Origin: Taibaiella lutea
GTDB lineage: Bacteria; Bacteroidota; Bacteroidia; Chitinophagales; Chitinophagaceae
Direction of reading: 5' to 3'
NCBI RefSeq assembly: GCF_008629695.1
Contig: NZ_VWSH01000001.1
Coordinates: 1,577,990 to 1,641,989 of the forward strand
DNA: 64,000 bases
A model generated the notes under the pieces. It was not told the origin of the DNA and made no database searches. It saw only the letters and a list, made by a program, of their open reading frames with translations. Shown piece by piece: positions 35,598-46,074 of the stretch. The position numbers and the translations under genes were made by a program. Within the stretch, counting starts at the first letter, position 1. Every line of letters begins with the position of its first letter.

Positions 35598-36416
35598 TTA
35601 TGGTGCAATAATAATCTTAGTTTGTGTATTCTGTGCACTGAAATAACCCAATGCATCTCCTTTAATATTACTGACAGGATTTGCCGGTGCAGCAGAGCCT
35701 TGCCCGCCAGAAGCACTTTGTTCAAAGCTAAACCAATATTGGTAAGTAGGACGATCAATGCCTAACAGATCGATTCTTATTTCGTCGCCGGATTTTATAC
35801 TGTCCACGTCATTTTGGTCAAAATATAAAGTGGATTCAAAACGTTTGCCGTCACTGTAATCATCATCCAGAATAAAATTTCCTTTTGTACGCTTGCCATT
35901 CACATATTGAATACAACGATAATTATTTTGTGTATCAACAGGGTCTTGCAGCATAACTGTTGCAAAAGTATAGTTATTGCCAAAGAAAGATTGTGTTTCT
36001 GCATAAGCGCTGTCGAATGGCACCAAATAAGGCATGGTAGAAACGGCAGTATAAGACTTGCCATTCAGAACTACAGAAAGCTCGTAAGCCTTACCATAAT
36101 TACCTTTCAAATCCGAATCGACATATACACCTTGTGATGTTTCATGAAGTGTAGACAATAATTGGCCATTAGAGGAAATAGTAACTTGTGCGCCACTGAT
36201 TCCTGTAAAAGAATTATCATCATAAAACTCTTTAGTTTGGGACAGTTTCACAACGCAACCGCCTTTTTGGTCAGTAAGCACCGCGTCAATTACAAGTTTT
36301 TTATCAGTTTCTTTCAGGTTAACATTAATCACCTTCTGACAGGAAACTGTTGATAAGACTAAAAGCGCTGCTATTAAATAATGATATGATTTTATAAACT
36401 TCATAATCTGTTTCAA
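35598..36416 (-). CDS. DUF4249 domain lipoprotein
   Basis: Lipoprotein signal with lipobox LSTVSC near residue 26, then a beta-sandwich domain (KVINVNLKETDKKLVIDAVLTDQKGGCVVKLSQTKEF) characteristic of DUF4249. The C-terminal part has WFSFEQSASGG, typical of the family. DUF4249 genes nearly always sit directly downstream of a TonB receptor, as here (8-nt gap), and are thought to be its surface-exposed or periplasmic partner. The substrate is unknown. A start at residue 5 (MKFIKS) is also possible. Confidence 0.86.
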   Translation of the reverse strand: MKQIMKFIKSYHYLIAALLVLSTVSCQKVINVNLKETDKKLVIDAVLTDQKGGCVVKLSQTKEFYDDNSFTGISGAQVTISSNGQLLSTLHETSQGVYVDSDLKGNYGKAYELSVVLNGKSYTAVSTMPYLVPFDSAYAETQSFFGNNYTFATVMLQDPVDTQNNYRCIQYVNGKRTKGNFILDDDYSDGKRFESTLYFDQNDVDSIKSGDEIRIDLLGIDRPTYQYWFSFEQSASGGQGSAAPANPVSNIKGDALGYFSAQNTQTKIIIAP

Positions 36417-38746: not shown

Positions 38747-38801
38747 ATTGTTTTTTGAATCGGGAATTCGCTTCTTATATCCCAGACAGGTTCATTGAGC
38801 T

Positions 38802-38812
38802 TTACCCCTATC
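38802..38812 (-). promoter_or_regulatory. GGGGTAA-type motif upstream of the TonB receptor
   Basis: On the minus strand GATAGGGGTAA lies 55 nt upstream of the receptor start and is preceded by a T-rich run. It resembles the two CATGGGGGTAA copies at 41863 and 45446. Confidence 0.35.
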
Positions 38813-40066: not shown

Positions 40067-40426
40067 TTAAGCAGAAAGCGCAATTTGCATTTGAAGGCTT
40101 TCCAAACGCTCCCTTAATGTAATCATATGCTGTCTTGCATCCTGTGCAGTAGACATTGCGTATTGAAAAGTTCCGTAACCTTTTACTTCTCTTGGTTCAT
40201 CAATAGTTTGAAAAAGCCCGATGCCTATAAACTCCCATTGCGCAAATGCTTCATCATCATTTCTTAAATCCAGTTCTTTTGATGCCAGAACCAATGAAAA
40301 CTGATAAGCTTCCCTTTCTGAAGAGGCTTTTATCATTTTCATTTGTTTGTCAAATTGATAAACATCCGATTCATTTTTATTATGAATTCTGTAAATCAAT
40401 TCAGTTAAAAACCATCCTTCATTCAT
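40067..40426 (-). CDS. DUF4288-like hypothetical protein (119 aa)
   Basis: Soluble protein opening WFLTELIYRIHNKNES and containing KMIKASSEREAYQFS and WEFIGIGLFQTID, which resembles the DUF4288 layout. No signal peptide or catalytic motif. It is monocistronic with a strong terminator downstream. I would not assign a function; the family match is moderate. Confidence 0.65.
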   Translation of the reverse strand: MNEGWFLTELIYRIHNKNESDVYQFDKQMKMIKASSEREAYQFSLVLASKELDLRNDDEAFAQWEFIGIGLFQTIDEPREVKGYGTFQYAMSTAQDARQHMITLRERLESLQMQIALSA

Positions 40427-40639
40427 ATAATTTGTTTTATTCTAAATAATTTTCAGGCTACTTATTAATGCTAAACGCCTGTTTCATTATTTTATTTTAA
40501 CTGCTCCGCCTATTAAATAACTATTAACAAACTGCAGCCTTATTAAACCCATTGATGCTTTCATAGACGAGAAAAAGCATGCAGGCCTTGGTTAATAAAA
40601 TGATAATAAATGGCCTGAAAAGCTATAGTTTATATCAAT

Positions 40640-41824
40640 TTAAAAGCGAAACTGAATGCCTGCCACGCCGCCGATAAATAATCCATTGAATTGTTCTCCT
40701 TTCTTTTCATTCCATAAATAGTGATCTTCGCGGATATCTTTCTGGTCGCTTTCATAACCCATATAATTGAAACTTGGACCTGCAAAAAGTTCTATGCGAT
40801 TACCCAGTTTTAATCCCGCTGTGATTCTTGCAGTTGATTTAAAATAAACATCATCTTTCAAATCAGATAAGGAAGAAAAAGTAAGTTCCGTGTTGAATCT
40901 GAAATATTCCCCGATTGGAAAATGCGCTCCCAAACCTGCCTCTAAAACATAGCGAGCATTGTCCTCTTTAAAATTATAACCTGCACCCAATATGCCGTAC
41001 AAAACTTTACCACCTGAGCGTAAGGAGACAAGAGAAGTTCCCATTTCATCCATAGAAACACCAATCATCTTCTCACCGTTTTTAATGATATTTACAATAC
41101 CGATAGGATAATCACTTTCTTCCGCAATATTGACAAATCCTGCCAACTGTAACCCTTTTACCTTCTTAGCTACATTGATAAAACCTGCGATTTGTGTTTC
41201 GACAGTATCACCCAGATTTATAAAGCCTGCTACCTGAATAGCTTCTGATTTCTTTGTTATATTAATAAATCCGGCAAGTTGTACATCTGAAGAATCCGCT
41301 ATATTCATGAATCCTGAAAGTTGTGCCCCATCTACATTACGGGCGATATTAGTAAGGCCTGACATTTGCAGTCCGCCGGCATTGTCAGCAAAATTTGCAA
41401 TACCGGAGATTTGTGCACCCCTTGCGTCTTTGGAAATATTGCTGATACCTGCAAGCTGGACACCTTTGAAATTATTACCATTATAGTTGACGAGTCCTGC
41501 CAGTTGAAAACCATGTCCATTATATCCTACATGATTATAAAGACCTGAAATGATGGCACCGTCCGCATTGCCTTTAACAATAGAGCTGAGGCCCGACAAG
41601 CAGAATGCATCTTCTTGTCCCGAAACACCTGCCAAAAGATGGAATGAAATGCCATTCTCTGTATAAGGAGCCTGAATGCCATTGGAACTTAAAGGATAAA
41701 TGAAACCAATGTGTGCAGGTCTTTTCAGCGTATCTTGTGCATGCGAAACGATGCTGAAACAAAATAGGATAAGCGCTATGCTAATTAGCCATAAAAGTCC
41801 TTTACTTACTAAATAACGTGTCAT
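40640..41824 (-). CDS. LA_2272-type surface-repeat protein (394 aa)
   Basis: Signal peptide to about residue 30. From about residue 75 to 245 it consists of imperfect 15-residue units of the form G-x-Q-(L/I/V)-(A/S)-G-(F/I/L)-x-N-(I/F): GVQLAGISNI, GAQISGIANF, GLQMSGLTNI, GAQLSGFMNI and so on. These are expected to stack as a beta-solenoid or surface domain. The last 140 residues look like an outer-membrane beta-barrel ending IGGVAGIQFRF. It is 65 nt downstream of a larger paralogue with the same repeats. The CATGGGGGTAA motif lies 39 nt upstream of its start. Confidence 0.78.
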   Translation of the reverse strand: MTRYLVSKGLLWLISIALILFCFSIVSHAQDTLKRPAHIGFIYPLSSNGIQAPYTENGISFHLLAGVSGQEDAFCLSGLSSIVKGNADGAIISGLYNHVGYNGHGFQLAGLVNYNGNNFKGVQLAGISNISKDARGAQISGIANFADNAGGLQMSGLTNIARNVDGAQLSGFMNIADSSDVQLAGFINITKKSEAIQVAGFINLGDTVETQIAGFINVAKKVKGLQLAGFVNIAEESDYPIGIVNIIKNGEKMIGVSMDEMGTSLVSLRSGGKVLYGILGAGYNFKEDNARYVLEAGLGAHFPIGEYFRFNTELTFSSLSDLKDDVYFKSTARITAGLKLGNRIELFAGPSFNYMGYESDQKDIREDHYLWNEKKGEQFNGLFIGGVAGIQFRF

Positions 41825-41862
41825 GTTTTAATGTCTTTCTAACAAGACACACAAACAGGATT

Positions 41863-41873
41863 TTACCCCCATG
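41863..41873 (-). promoter_or_regulatory. CATGGGGGTAA motif upstream of the repeat-protein gene
   Basis: This 11-mer on the minus strand is identical to the one upstream of the ECF sigma gene (45446-45456). It lies in the 65-nt gap before the 394-aa gene and is preceded by a T-rich run. It could be part of a promoter or a transcript 5' end. Confidence 0.45.
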
Positions 41874-41889
41874 ATTATTTGAAAAAAGA

Positions 41890-43680
41890 TCAGAATAAGT
41901 CCAGGCCTATGTTCCACCCGATCCAGCCCGTTACATATTTACCCATTGAGAAAGAAGGATAACCATTTGTAAAGTCGTATTGGTAGCCTTCAACAGGAGT
42001 TGTCTGTTTGGAATAAAGAACCGAAAATGCAGGCCCGGCGTATATATCCGCATATTTGCCTAACTTGTATTTTAAATTGATCTGTAGTCTTGATAGCAGA
42101 TTTTGATGAGCATCATTCCCGTTGTAAATGTATTGATGTGTCAATTCGGGATTAATGTAAAAACCTTTCTTTCCAATACGTCTATCGCTCCCTAACCCAT
42201 AACCATAAGAATAAGCCTTCTTGTTTCTATCTAATTGCATACCTCCTAACAGCATACTGTATAGCTTCGCATTTCCTGATTTATAGGCAATGGAAAGCTG
42301 TTGCCACTCGCTACTGGAAACAGATAATTTGTGGTAGCCGTGTATCACGATATTGACTAAACCTATACTGTAGCCATCGCTTGAATCAGCAATATTTATC
42401 ATTCCTATTTGTACACCTTTTAATTTTCGCGTATAGTTCAAAATGCCTGAAAGTTGCAGGCCATTCATTTCCTTCATGCTAAAATTTGTTGTACCGGCAA
42501 CCTGCAAGCCTTCTGTTTTAGCAAGCGTTACATTCACTGTACCTGCCAACTGAACACCGTTCATATTTCTGGCAACATTAAATGTGCCACCAACAACCAT
42601 TCCATGGCAACTTTGTGTATTTACACTTCCAACACCTGAAGCCTGAAAACCATATACATTGCTTGAGTAATTATAAATTCCTGCTACCTGCACTCCTTCT
42701 ACATCCTTCATCACAATATTGGCCAAACCCGCAGCCTGACAGCCTTGCATGTTTTCCAAACCATTATTGTATAATCCGGCAACCTGTACGCCTTGTATCT
42801 CTCCCCCAACTACATTAAACAAACCCGCAAATTGTGCGTACCCCATATTTCCCTTGTCAATATTGAAAAGGCCGCCCAGTTCAAAACCTTTTACACCTGC
42901 AGTATAACCACCCAGCAAATTCAAAGAGAATTTATTGACAACCTGCGAACCCATACTTCCATGCGAACCCAAACCGGGCGTCAATGAAAACTGGACAGGT
43001 TGCTTAGTGAAGAAATTGCTCAGGTTCAGGCTGTTCATGGTTTGCTTGGAGGATATAAAAAGTCCTGCCAGCCAATTTTGTTCTACGCCTGAAATAACCA
43101 CGGAATCAAGTTCATAAGCTTTTGGCTGTATCGGAATTTTAATAACTTCCTGTCTGCTCGCCGACATTAAAAGAACGGTATCTTTATAGGAAAGCTTACT
43201 AACGCTTATAGATGTCTGGCTTCTTTTTTCTTTTAATGGCAATTTAAAAAAACCATGTTCGTCGGTCATGGTAGCAATGAGTTGTTGCTGTTCGAAAACA
43301 GTGGCATATCCGACTGGTTCTCCCGTATTCATATCAATGACATATCCGCTCACATACCAATAGTCGGGCGATGTATTAGGCTGAATGATTAAATGGTTGG
43401 TACTTTCCTGATATTGGAATTGGTTGCCAAAAAGCGATTCCAATAAAAATTTCAATGATTTATTGTTAATTGAAATCGTAACAATGCTGTCTTCATTAAT
43501 AATATTGTTATTGTAGGAGAAATAAAAACCGCCTTGCTTTTCCGCCATTTTAAAAACATCCGATACTTTTTTGTTTTTTGCATCGATAGACATTCTTTTC
43601 TCCAGGATACTTTGCGCATGTATTGTCGCAGCAAAACATATAAGGATAATGAACAATAATAATTTCGGGAATAGCTTCAT
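41890..43680 (-). CDS. STN-domain/carboxypeptidase-like/LA_2272-repeat fusion protein (596 aa)
   Basis: Signal peptide (1-22); STN domain (about 28-101: MSIDAKNKKVSDVFKMAEKQ ... LKFLLESLFGNQFQY ... LIIQP), as found at the N-terminus of signalling TonB receptors; carboxypeptidase-regulatory-like domain (about 107-190); then about ten 15-16-residue repeats (about 265-445: GVQVAGLYNN, GCQAAGLANI, GVQLAGTVNV, GLQLSGILNY); then a barrel-like C-terminus ending IGWNIGLDLF. There is no TonB plug and no 22-strand barrel. It is downstream of the sigma/FecR operon, from which a terminator separates it. I infer that it is the sensor of that pair. Confidence 0.8.
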   Translation of the reverse strand: MKLFPKLLLFIILICFAATIHAQSILEKRMSIDAKNKKVSDVFKMAEKQGGFYFSYNNNIINEDSIVTISINNKSLKFLLESLFGNQFQYQESTNHLIIQPNTSPDYWYVSGYVIDMNTGEPVGYATVFEQQQLIATMTDEHGFFKLPLKEKRSQTSISVSKLSYKDTVLLMSASRQEVIKIPIQPKAYELDSVVISGVEQNWLAGLFISSKQTMNSLNLSNFFTKQPVQFSLTPGLGSHGSMGSQVVNKFSLNLLGGYTAGVKGFELGGLFNIDKGNMGYAQFAGLFNVVGGEIQGVQVAGLYNNGLENMQGCQAAGLANIVMKDVEGVQVAGIYNYSSNVYGFQASGVGSVNTQSCHGMVVGGTFNVARNMNGVQLAGTVNVTLAKTEGLQVAGTTNFSMKEMNGLQLSGILNYTRKLKGVQIGMINIADSSDGYSIGLVNIVIHGYHKLSVSSSEWQQLSIAYKSGNAKLYSMLLGGMQLDRNKKAYSYGYGLGSDRRIGKKGFYINPELTHQYIYNGNDAHQNLLSRLQINLKYKLGKYADIYAGPAFSVLYSKQTTPVEGYQYDFTNGYPSFSMGKYVTGWIGWNIGLDLF

Positions 43681-43746
43681 TTGTTGCTTGTGTGAAATAT
43701 CTTATTTTAAAGCATTTCATGCATTTTTGGTCTTTAAATAAATAAA

Positions 43747-43776
43747 AGATTAGCATAACTTCCGTTATGCTAATCT
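43747..43776 (-). terminator. Terminator of the sigma/anti-sigma operon
   Basis: A 13-bp perfect stem (agattagcataac / gttatgctaatct) with a 4-nt loop, followed on the minus strand by a T-rich stretch. Confidence 0.8.
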
Positions 43777-43808
43777 CCATCCTCACAAATCTTTTTCCGC
43801 TTCTATAA

Positions 43809-44780
43809 TTACTTAAGTATAATTCTCCCGTCTCTCTGTTCTATGCTTAAATTGTAAGTTTCTGTAATGACTTTAAGAATATCAGTTAAAGATTCATTCT
43901 TAAATGTTGAACTATATGGTAAATTCCTGATTTTATCATTTGCAATAATTATTTGTACATCATAAGTTTTATTCAATGCATCGACCAATTCATACAAAGG
44001 TGTATTAAAACATTCAAACGTTTTTGTACGATAATAATTGTATAACAAGTCATTGTTTTTATCGACCTTCAGCTTAGTTGCATTTCTTGGAATAATCACT
44101 TTTTCCTTTGGCAGCAATTTAACGGACTCTTTGTCCATGCTGACTTTAACAACACCCGTTTCAACAATAACTGCCGTTTCCATACTATCTGCTTTTACGT
44201 TGAAAGACGTACCAACAACATGAACGTTTACTTTGCCGACTTTAATATCAAACGGTTTTTGTTTGTTGGGTGCAACATCAAAGAAAGCTTCTCCGTTCAG
44301 CGTTACTTCCCTTGTTTTTTCATTAAAATCTTTAGAATATACCAACGAAGAATGCTTGTTCAAGGTAATAACGGAACCATCCGGCAAACGCTCAACACGT
44401 ACTTCATTTTCAGATGCCAGTGTAATTTCTTTATCACGAAACAAAACATTCATGCCAAACAAGCCACCCGCAATGATAATAAATGCAGCTGCGACTCTCA
44501 TCCAGTTTAACCGTTTCTTCTCATGAACAAACGGAATTACATCAGACTGTTCATTAGCTGATGCTCTGGCTTTAAATCTTTTCCAGGCTTCGTTTTCATC
44601 TATCTCCTTTTCTGATTGTAAATTTTTGCTTGCATTCCATATTGTTCTAAAATCCTGATAATATTTTTCATTCTCCAGGTTTGCAGCACGCCAGGTATTT
44701 ACTGTCTGATTTTCATCAGAAGTAGTTTCATTTAATAATTGTTTTATTAAAAGCTCATCCATTTGTTCATTTGTTTTCAT
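43809..44780 (-). CDS. FecR-family anti-sigma factor with DUF4974 C-terminus
   Basis: N-terminal cytoplasmic region (about 1-88, sigma-binding), one membrane helix (MRVAAAFIIIAGGLFGMNVLF, about 92-112), FecR domain (about 116-205: EVRVERLPDGSVITLNKHSSLVY ... VTLNGEAFFDVAP ... VVGTSFNVKA), and a C-terminal STN-like DUF4974 domain (about 250-322). It holds the ECF sigma factor inactive until a signal from the outer membrane arrives. The gene starts 15 nt after the sigma gene stop. It is complete, at the normal 320-aa size. Confidence 0.93.
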   Translation of the reverse strand: MKTNEQMDELLIKQLLNETTSDENQTVNTWRAANLENEKYYQDFRTIWNASKNLQSEKEIDENEAWKRFKARASANEQSDVIPFVHEKKRLNWMRVAAAFIIIAGGLFGMNVLFRDKEITLASENEVRVERLPDGSVITLNKHSSLVYSKDFNEKTREVTLNGEAFFDVAPNKQKPFDIKVGKVNVHVVGTSFNVKADSMETAVIVETGVVKVSMDKESVKLLPKEKVIIPRNATKLKVDKNNDLLYNYYRTKTFECFNTPLYELVDALNKTYDVQIIIANDKIRNLPYSSTFKNESLTDILKVITETYNLSIEQRDGRIILK

Positions 44781-44795
44781 TTTCCTGCGCTCCTT

Positions 44796-45419
44796 TTATT
44801 TAATAAAATCCTTAAATAAACAAATCAATACAATCCAGAGTGTCGGTAGATATGCTGCCAATTCTGCTCTCATTATTTTCAAAGCCTTTCCCATCTGGTT
44901 CTCTATTGTTTTCACTGAAAGCTGCAAACGTTCTGCAATCTCTTTATATTTCAACTCCTCATACCGGCTCAATTGAAATATAGTGCGGCATTGCTCCGGC
45001 AACTTATTCAGGGCTATTCTTATTTTTCCCTCCAATTCTTTTGTATCAATATCCTTGTGATGATTATTGGAAGATTCCGTCATGGTATGTTTCACAAAAG
45101 ATACATGTGCCTGTTTCACCTTTTCATGTTTTAAAAAATTAATGGATTCGTTATAAACCGATCGGTAGAGATATGCCTGAATAGAACTGTTTATTTCAAT
45201 ATTTGCTCTCTTTTCCCATAATTTCAAAAACACCTGTTGCACCATTTCTTCCGCATGTTCATAATCTGTCAGAATGGAATTGGCGTAGGCATGTAAAGCC
45301 TTAAAATGCGCTTTGTACACATTTTCAAAAACTTTTTCAGAAATCCCCTGTTGGTTTAACTCCATAAATGGCGCCTGCTTATATGCCCCAAAGTTAGCAG
45401 GAAGTATCAATGTTTCCAT
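44796..45419 (-). CDS. ECF-type RNA polymerase sigma factor
   Basis: Sigma-70 region 2 (FENVYKAHFKALHAYANSILTDYEHAEEMVQQVFLKLWEK) and region 4 (LPEQCRTIFQLSRYEELKYKEIAERLQLSVKTIENQM), followed by a hydrophobic C-terminal tail common in Bacteroidota ECF factors. It is co-transcribed with the FecR anti-sigma gene. Length is 207 aa from ATG 45419; a start at 45365 (MELNQQ, 189 aa) is equally likely. The CATGGGGGTAA motif is 27 nt upstream, suggesting that it may control its own promoter. Confidence 0.92.
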   Translation of the reverse strand: METLILPANFGAYKQAPFMELNQQGISEKVFENVYKAHFKALHAYANSILTDYEHAEEMVQQVFLKLWEKRANIEINSSIQAYLYRSVYNESINFLKHEKVKQAHVSFVKHTMTESSNNHHKDIDTKELEGKIRIALNKLPEQCRTIFQLSRYEELKYKEIAERLQLSVKTIENQMGKALKIMRAELAAYLPTLWIVLICLFKDFIK

Positions 45420-45445
45420 TAATGATAAGATACCTTAAAGGCACA

Positions 45446-45456
45446 TTACCCCCATG
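45446..45456 (-). promoter_or_regulatory. CATGGGGGTAA motif upstream of the sigma gene
   Basis: This is identical over 11 nt to the motif before the 394-aa repeat protein gene. A TTTTC run lies 6 nt upstream of it, as at the other copy (7 nt). No TAnnTTTG box is seen in this gap. Confidence 0.45.
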
Positions 45457-45639
45457 CGCTCCGAAAATTATTCGATTGCTGCTTTTATCAGAGAAATTAA
45501 TTTTAGTAATTCTCATAAATTTAGTTCCACTATATAGCTTCTGTTTTGCAAAAACTATCCTAAGAAATGAAAATGCAATGCATCAAAGCTTTCATTTTAA
45601 GCCGGAAAAAATTACATTTGATAAACTAAAATTGCAATT

Positions 45640-46074
45640 ATGGGATTCGTAAAGGAATTTAAAGAGTTCGCCGTAAAAGGCAATGTAATGGATTTGGCTG
45701 TCGGTGTCATTATTGGCGGTGCATTTGGTAAAATTATTGACAGCGTTGTCAATGATTTAATCATGCCATTGGTTTCGGGTATTATCGGTTCTCCTGATTT
45801 TACCAACAAATACTATGTCATTAAAGGAACGGTTCCTGAAGGCACTTCTCTTGCCGAAGCCCGAAAAATTGCAGACACAGCCATTTTTGCTTATGGTAAT
45901 TTCATTACCGTATTCATTAACTTCCTGTTACTTGCGTTCGTTATTTTTATGATGGTGAAAGGCATGAATAGCCTGAAACGCAAACAGGAACAAGCTCCTG
46001 CTGCTCCGCCGGCACCTTCAAGCACGGATGTATTGCTGACAGAAATCCGTGATGAGTTAAAAAAGAAAAACTAA
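45640..46074 (+). CDS. mscL: Large-conductance mechanosensitive channel MscL
   Basis: Pentameric channel that opens in response to membrane tension. The N-terminal amphipathic helix ([44 protein letters not shown]) contains the TM1 pore motif; TM2 is [24 protein letters not shown]-like, and the C-terminal bundle has a Pro/Ala linker before the [11 protein letters not shown] helix. Length is 144 aa, normal. The gene has its own terminator and is divergent from the sigma operon. Confidence 0.95.

Follow-up and report, generated by a model that had tools for sequence, protein, structure and literature searches.

Gene Organization of the Locus

We analyzed a 64,000-nt stretch of the Taibaiella lutea genome (contig NZ_VWSH01000001.1, positions 1,577,990 to 1,641,989; hereafter the window) that contains a candidate cell-surface signaling system: genes for an extracytoplasmic function (ECF) sigma factor, a FecR-type anti-sigma factor, a 596-aa protein that we call the sensor, and a second repeat protein, all on the minus strand at 40640-45419 (Table 1). 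These four genes had been proposed in a first-pass annotation made from the sequence alone, and all four were confirmed. Domain searches identified the two regulators expected of Fec-type signaling, an ECF sigma factor and an anti-sigma factor carrying both the FecR and the FecR_C domain. The closest named relatives are from Taibaiella (61, 61, and 59% identity).

Table 1. Features of the sigma-FecR-sensor locus and of its predicted targets in the window.
Feature	Position	Strand	Evidence or remark
ECF sigma factor, 207 aa	44796-45419	minus	TIGR02985, 172.2 bits (cut-off 126.4)
FecR-type anti-sigma factor, 323 aa	43809-44780	minus	PF04773 and PF16344 (FecR and FecR_C) above cut-off
Terminator-like hairpin between FecR and sensor gene	43745-43778	minus	15-pair stem
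Sensor/transducer, 596 aa	41890-43680	minus	Signal peptide, STN, carboxypeptidase-like domain, solenoid, predicted outer-membrane barrel
STN signaling domain of sensor, residues 24-102	43375-43611	minus	Alignment A4, own profile, fold match to PupA 2a02
CarbopepD_reg_2 domain of sensor, residues 110-196	43093-43353	minus	45.7 bits (cut-off 32.2); 5aq0, TM-score by target 0.74-0.78
Repeat solenoid of sensor, residues 249-447	42340-42936	minus	Two short strands per 15-16-residue coil; pLDDT >90 over most
Predicted outer-membrane barrel of sensor, residues 449-596	41893-42336	minus	Eight long strands, C-terminal Phe
Second solenoid-barrel (repeat) protein, 394 aa	40640-41824	minus	No STN
TonB-dependent receptor, 773 aa	36425-38746	minus	Carboxypeptidase-like domain and plug, no STN match; predicted sigma target
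DUF4249 protein	35598-36416	minus	8 bp 3′ of receptor gene; lipoprotein-like by eye
Promoter element before sigma, TGGGGGTA-N14-TATC	45429-45454	minus	
Promoter element before second solenoid-barrel gene, TGGGGGTA-N14-TGTC	41846-41871	minus	
Promoter element 38 bp before TonB receptor, TAGGGGTA-N14-TGTC	38785-38810	minus	Only exact consensus match in the genome

Domain Architecture and Predicted Fold of the Sensor

The first-pass annotation read an STN domain and a carboxypeptidase-like domain in the sensor. The latter scores above its cut-off in the window protein and matches at E < 0.01 in all 80 members of alignment A4 (the window plus 79 of the 80 named loci described below; the shortened L147 was left out). 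For STN, the window protein falls short of the Pfam cut-off (15.3 bits against 28.4), and it is one of the three members of A4 that PF07660 misses at E < 0.01; since the other 77 match, the window sensor likely has an STN domain as well. Its structural model also resembles the signaling domain of PupA (2a02; TM-score, i.e., template modeling score, by target 0.61, E-value 0.097, Foldseek).

An AlphaFold2 model built from 80 sequences (mean predicted local distance difference test, pLDDT, 84.1; predicted TM-score, pTM, 0.56) has, in order, the STN-like domain, the carboxypeptidase-like domain, a poorly modeled linker, the repeats, and eight long strands that continue up to the last residues, with low confidence at residues 190-197 and 210-249. 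From the strand pattern the repeats can be inferred to form a solenoid. The sensor had been proposed to lack both a plug and a TonB barrel. No Pfam match to either was found in it, and the model, with its repeats and about eight barrel strands, is not that of a 22-strand TonB barrel, so this part of the claim holds; the model suggests, however, that the sensor is not barrel-less and probably ends, after the repeats, in a small barrel of the outer-membrane type. Outer-membrane barrels were found when the model was searched against the PDB with Foldseek (best E-value 8e-4, porin BpsOmp38), and the terminal residue, Phe596, is at least 90% conserved in alignment A1 (46 rows, the window plus 45 of the 48 family loci described below; L044, L061, and L072 were left out); in A4 phenylalanine is the majority residue there but does not exceed 90%. 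A sequence search of solved structures returned two matches for the sensor, both to carboxypeptidase-like domains of TonB-type proteins. We also considered a TonB box: the sequence LDSVVI at residues 191-196 resembles one, but it lies inside the end of the carboxypeptidase-like match and varies among homologues, and its conservation is too low to claim a TonB box.

The second repeat protein is predicted to be the same body as the sensor without the STN domain, including the C-terminal barrel. Its AlphaFold2 model (mean pLDDT 90.2, pTM 0.68) resembles small outer-membrane barrels such as NspA and Opa60 (TM-score by target 0.71 for Opa60), none of them at E ≤ 0.001 in Foldseek, and the search of solved structures by sequence gave weak ribosomal-protein matches only. 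The repeats of both window proteins are of the type found in the LA_2272 surface repeat family and the VC2662 family (NCBIfam), with scores of 23.8 (sensor) and 17.9 bits (second protein) for the LA_2272 model NF047436, both below its curated cut-off of 25. The same model matched at E < 0.01, with the cut-off not applied, in 17 of the 42 members of alignment A5 (the window plus 41 of the 45 second-protein genes; L134, L138, L165, and L170 were left out). Eight relatives outside sensor loci were examined, and these have the repeats and the barrel part but no STN domain.

Conservation of the Sigma-FecR-Sensor Arrangement

We compared three sets of loci. For the named-genome set, we used the best 80 of the 232 relatives retrieved with a 7-row alignment; this set and the family set have genomes in common. 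Sigma and FecR genes lie directly upstream of the sensor gene, on the same strand, in 71 of the 80 loci, with a median FecR-sensor gap of 14 bp by first start codon; in one more locus FecR is at the contig end, in one the sensor is at a contig edge, and seven have neither regulator. Within the same family, the sensor matched at E ≤ 0.001 in 119 of 147 genomes, many of the weak matches being confined to the N-terminal 200 residues, in frames some 1100 aa long; among the 48 sensor loci surveyed there, the three genes are contiguous in 45, one is at a contig edge, and two have neither partner. The phylum set comprises 20 loci chosen from the best survey hits, not at random. Twelve of them, from six other families, contain an STN sensor (sigma and FecR in 10, FecR alone in one, neither in one); the other eight contain a solenoid-barrel protein without STN, and neither sigma nor FecR was found in any of the seven of these with more than 6 kb of upstream sequence, the eighth being cut off 263 bases upstream. 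Solenoid-barrel proteins of this STN-less kind (L211-L218) are present in many genomes from a different family (f23) in the phylum. A single-sequence scan of genome contigs gave 13 pattern matches, none of which was confirmed.

The proposal that the STN protein is the partner gene of the sigma-FecR pair is thus borne out, with coupling in 72/80 named, 45/48 family, and 10/12 other-family loci (and FecR alone in an eleventh). Homologues would have spoken against it had they regularly stood away from sigma and FecR; this was seen for seven and two sensors in the two large sets, and the seven form one clade (Shimodaira-Hasegawa-like approximate likelihood ratio support 99). Six of these seven (L098, L100, L110, L116, L117, L118, and L127) are named Chitinophaga; the next gene in L098 encodes a carbon-nitrogen hydrolase.

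Other neighbors are less constant. Among the 80 named loci, 45 have a second solenoid-barrel gene near the sensor, 40 have a TonB receptor there, and 44 have a gene for a GIN-domain protein downstream (two GIN proteins examined belong to PF10988). The TonB receptor was accordingly rejected as an invariant part of the module. A family profile recovered 70 receptors from the scanned loci (some genomes being counted twice), and an STN match was found in only one of them, that of locus L088. In the family set, the receptors of 25 loci fall into one subfamily, and those of the window, L035, L049, and L088 (and L078 at a lower threshold) into another.

The first-pass annotation also placed a terminator after FecR. 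The hairpin itself stands up (the FecR-sensor intergenic stretch has a folding z of -4.49), but terminator-like sites are not in excess across the region (five, against 4.2 in shuffled sequences). In three other Taibaiella loci (L091-L093) the FecR-sensor gap contains hairpins at the same place but of unlike sequence (z of -2.2, -6.1, and -2.7). Hairpins of differing sequence at the same position in four related genomes suggest attenuation between FecR and the sensor gene. No Rfam family was found above threshold across 40400-45700.

FecR and STN Partners in the Taibaiella lutea Genome

The genome contains three FecR genes and three genes for STN proteins, each FecR gene being followed by its own STN gene: the window sensor, a classical STN-TonB receptor at L088, and, at L089, an STN protein of 426 aa whose barrel match is weak. 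Because each FecR has its own STN gene, we see no other candidate STN receptor for the window FecR. The search alignment (A6) included both other STN domains and recovered them by construction; its result is therefore that there is no fourth STN protein within reach of the profile. The Pfam STN model by itself found one of the three.

This bears on the classical alternative, in which the partner of the window FecR would be a TonB transducer encoded elsewhere: a classical STN-TonB receptor does exist in the genome, at L088, but the gene for that receptor immediately follows a sigma-FecR pair of its own, and the search turned up no more than three STN proteins, so that we consider this reading highly improbable and, given the one-to-one pairing, rejected a distant transducer as the partner. 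The first-pass annotation, which saw the STN protein in place of a TonB receptor, was right in that no other STN receptor was found as a possible FecR partner, but it missed a TonB receptor without STN that is a predicted target of the sigma factor, as described next.

A Promoter Element Shared by Sigma, Repeat-Protein, and Receptor Genes

Side-by-side comparison of upstream regions revealed GGGGTA before both the sigma gene and the second repeat gene. Across loci the -35 part of the element takes the form TAGGGGTA, which we counted when it lay no more than 250 bases upstream of a gene or in its first 60 bases. In the 80-locus set it was found for 49 of 70 coupled sigma genes, 27 of 45 repeat genes, 28 of 40 receptor genes, and 10 of 44 GIN genes, against none of four other sigma genes, none of 80 sensor genes, none of 72 FecR genes, and 2 of 595 other genes. 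The family set gave a similar picture: coupled sigma 31/44, repeat 15/21, receptor 17/28, and GIN 5/29, against other sigma 0/5, sensor 0/47, FecR 0/47, and other genes 5/492. The counts in the phylum set were sigma 6/10, repeat 2/12, receptor 1/4, GIN 0/5, sensor 0/12, FecR 0/11, and others 3/197. The 419 other orders of the same eight letters gave a mean total of 0.95 over the four target classes, compared with 114 for TAGGGGTA, and the high scorers among them are shifted forms of the same site. By eye, no such element precedes five other sigma genes (L088, L089, and the second sigma genes in L046, L061, and L081).

A -10 part was seen when 152 distinct sites were anchored on TAGGGGTA alone: the letters T, G, and T occur at a fixed distance in 144, 150, and 152 of them, respectively, and GTC follows exactly 15 bases on in 115. 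A GTC-type -10 is usual for ECF promoters, and their -35 is more often GGAAC-like. Among the open-access matches listed for the -35 sequence, judged by title, no paper on such a promoter was found. All ten Dyadobacter loci (L141, L143, L149, L153, L157, L163, L164, L165, L167, and L168) keep the sigma-FecR-sensor order and lack TAGGGGTA before sigma; they may use another promoter sequence.

Predicted Regulon

The degenerate pattern TRGGGGTA-N14-TRTC has three sites in the 4.27-Mb genome, before the sigma gene, the second repeat gene, and the TonB receptor gene, and none in a reversed control. Because the pattern was made degenerate in order to fit the sigma and repeat-gene sites, these two are not independent, and the receptor site is the sole independent prediction of the three. 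The STN-less TonB receptor is thereby predicted to be a target of the same sigma factor. The second repeat protein, for which the first-pass annotation had offered the roles of partner, ligand-binding subunit, or target, is best read as a target of the sigma factor. A longer promoter pattern with two mismatches allowed gave one match in the genome and ten in the reversed control; as the control gave more matches, we set this search aside as uninformative.

The same three genes recur in a congener (G101), with exact sites before the sigma gene, the repeat gene, and a receptor of the same subfamily; another congener (G001) has exact sites before the sigma and repeat genes and a third at the edge of the stretch examined. 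A search of the 147 family genomes found the exact form in 34 of the 46 with an examined sensor locus (the window included) and in 15 of the 101 others (Fisher p = 4e-12). The true sites number 86 and 22 in these two groups, compared with 14 and 35 for the reversed control, counted by eye, and 53 of the 86 lie within 12 kb of the sensor, where 0.4 would be expected.

The sensor genomes contain 33 distant sites. Judging by position, two of these stand about 50 bp before unlinked repeat genes (G002 and G102). We examined a further 20 of the 33: the next gene encodes a TonB receptor in five cases (21 to 777 bp off), a sigma factor in one, a GIN-like protein in one, and something else in 13; some of these 13 sites fall within other genes and are likely due to chance. 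Three genomes (G055, G065, and G085) have a distant site before a receptor gene and no receptor beside the sensor. Distant sites at L232, L235, L236, L241, L243, and L247 precede genes for small secreted or barrel-like proteins, and by eye those at L235 and L236, and at L241 and L247, look alike, a hint of more regulon members.

Proposed Mechanism and Alternative Readings

We consider it probable that the locus encodes a Fec-type cell-surface signaling system in which the transducer and the transporter are two separate proteins and the receptor is a regulated target. Comparison provides the coupling of the genes, the folds predicted for the proteins, the promoter element, and its distribution among genes; the contact, the direction of the signal, the membrane orientation, and the ligand we infer. 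The sensor would be anchored in the outer membrane by its small C-terminal barrel, with the solenoid, carboxypeptidase-like, and STN domains on the periplasmic side; a periplasmic solenoid would be the simplest arrangement, because the number of barrel strands is even and the STN domain must reach FecR. By analogy with the Fec, Fox, and Pup systems, the STN domain would contact the C-terminal domain of FecR and thereby control its hold on the ECF sigma factor. The freed sigma factor would recognize TAGGGGTA-N14-TGTC and transcribe its own sigma-FecR-sensor operon, the second solenoid-barrel gene, and the STN-less TonB receptor gene with its DUF4249 or GIN neighbor. Going a step further, we lean towards regarding this as an undescribed signaling class, in which STN has moved from the TonB receptor to a dedicated solenoid-barrel transducer that senses something other than its own transport cargo and uses an ECF sigma factor, one that has a promoter code of its own, to command an STN-less TonB receptor and a free copy of the transducer's body. 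The free-standing copy may be a decoy, a co-receptor, or a feedback brake.

Several observations weigh against a separate transducer that regulates the receptor. In the window, the receptor gene is parted from the sigma-FecR-sensor module by murB and a DUF4288 gene, the receptor belongs to a subfamily different from that of most other family-set loci, a hairpin parts FecR from the sensor gene, and the site before sigma is off consensus in both halves. Among the 80 named loci, just half have a receptor nearby and little more than half a second repeat protein, and seven sensors keep STN without an adjoining sigma or FecR gene; nor are the locus counts independent samples, because the two large sets overlap in genomes and the 80 loci are the best of 232. 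The sensor gene has no TAGGGGTA-type promoter of its own in the window or in any of the 80 named and 47 family loci examined, the exact -35 is absent before 21 of 70 and 13 of 44 coupled sigma genes (80-locus and family set), and two of the three genome sites are not independent of the pattern that found them. Finally, the barrel matches of the sensor are weak, with the best Foldseek E-value and the pTM given above.

The strongest alternative, which we rate as possible if somewhat less than even, is that the ligand is actually sensed by the STN-less TonB receptor. The solenoid-barrel protein would then be an adaptor, reading the condition of this receptor, or else of the second solenoid-barrel protein, and relaying it to FecR; the receptor would in effect have lent its STN domain to a partner. 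In the window and in many relatives the receptor gene is predicted to be controlled by this sigma factor, sometimes when it is elsewhere in the genome, and the window receptor is close in sequence to the STN-bearing L088 receptor (the same group at 400 bits), whose sigma gene lacks the element. The receptor is, however, less constant than the sensor, since half of the 80 loci have none nearby and at least two receptor subfamilies are used.

A second alternative takes the sensor as monitoring outer-membrane assembly or envelope stress: misassembly of its body, not a ligand, would free the STN domain and fire the sigma factor, and the second protein would be a competing or replacement client. 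The shared body of sensor and target fits this reading, as do the lack of a transport part in the sensor and the secreted or outer-membrane look, by eye, of several genes behind distant sites, but TonB receptors among the targets point to uptake, and we regard it as unlikely. Still less credible, to our minds, is that the sensor gene is a mere passenger or target of the operon whose STN domain no longer signals. The seven Chitinophaga-type copies without adjoining regulators and the terminator-like hairpin of the window would agree with this; against it, STN and FecR stay together across several families, and the FecR of this genome would otherwise have no findable partner.

Relation to Known Systems

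The contact of STN with the anti-sigma factor, and the resulting protection of the latter, are known from TonB transducers (PMC11637429). FecA-FecR-FecI and the Fox and Pup transducer systems (PMC11637429; PMC9249621) share with the window an ECF sigma factor, a FecR-type anti-sigma factor, an N-terminal STN domain on an outer-membrane protein, and a regulated receptor, the outer-membrane location and the regulation being predictions in the window. The STN carrier there is the TonB receptor itself, whereas in the window it is predicted to be a solenoid with a small barrel and no plug, and the receptor and the repeat protein are separate predicted targets. The sole published STN sensor without a barrel that was found in the open-access literature is VreA of the PUMA3 system VreA-VreR-VreI in Pseudomonas aeruginosa (PMC2729926), which likewise has STN on a protein other than a TonB receptor, with paired sigma and anti-sigma genes. 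VreA is small and mostly soluble, with a TolA/TonB-like C-terminal domain, whereas the window carrier is a predicted outer-membrane protein of 600 aa; in the sensor model, a different C-terminal part follows STN. Bacteroides, also of the Bacteroidota, has polysaccharide loci under ECF/anti-sigma control whose SusC-type receptors combine STN with a carboxypeptidase-like domain, there called NTE (PMC7782687); in these, NTE precedes STN and both are fused to a TonB transporter, whereas in the window STN comes first and no transporter follows.

Among the papers listed in searches of the open-access literature, none describing this sensor architecture was found, subscription papers being outside the scope of the search. 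The arrangement is real and conserved, and we would class it as a new layout within a known type of signaling, in which the sensor is detached from the transporter that it seems to regulate. Cell-surface signaling is mostly described as a trait of TonB receptors that sense their own cargo. If the proposed reading is true, a widely conserved system with a separate, non-transporting outer-membrane sensor would show the STN/FecR link to be a portable module, and some LA_2272-type repeat proteins would gain a role. The unusually clear predicted promoter also offers a way to deduce the regulon of many genomes from their sequence.

A second non-TonB layout is present in the same genome at L089:3554-6275 (G000:C1, about 994053-996774), where sigma and FecR genes are accompanied by the 426-aa STN protein, which has a glycine-rich linker and the weak outer-membrane barrel match. 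Like the window, it has STN on a barrel-like protein other than a TonB receptor beside sigma and FecR; unlike the window, it has no carboxypeptidase-like domain or repeats. Among 98 family genomes, this protein has matches at E ≤ 1e-6 in nine, its own included: the match in congener G001 is nearly full-length, that in G031 is in two pieces of one frame, and the others are partial.

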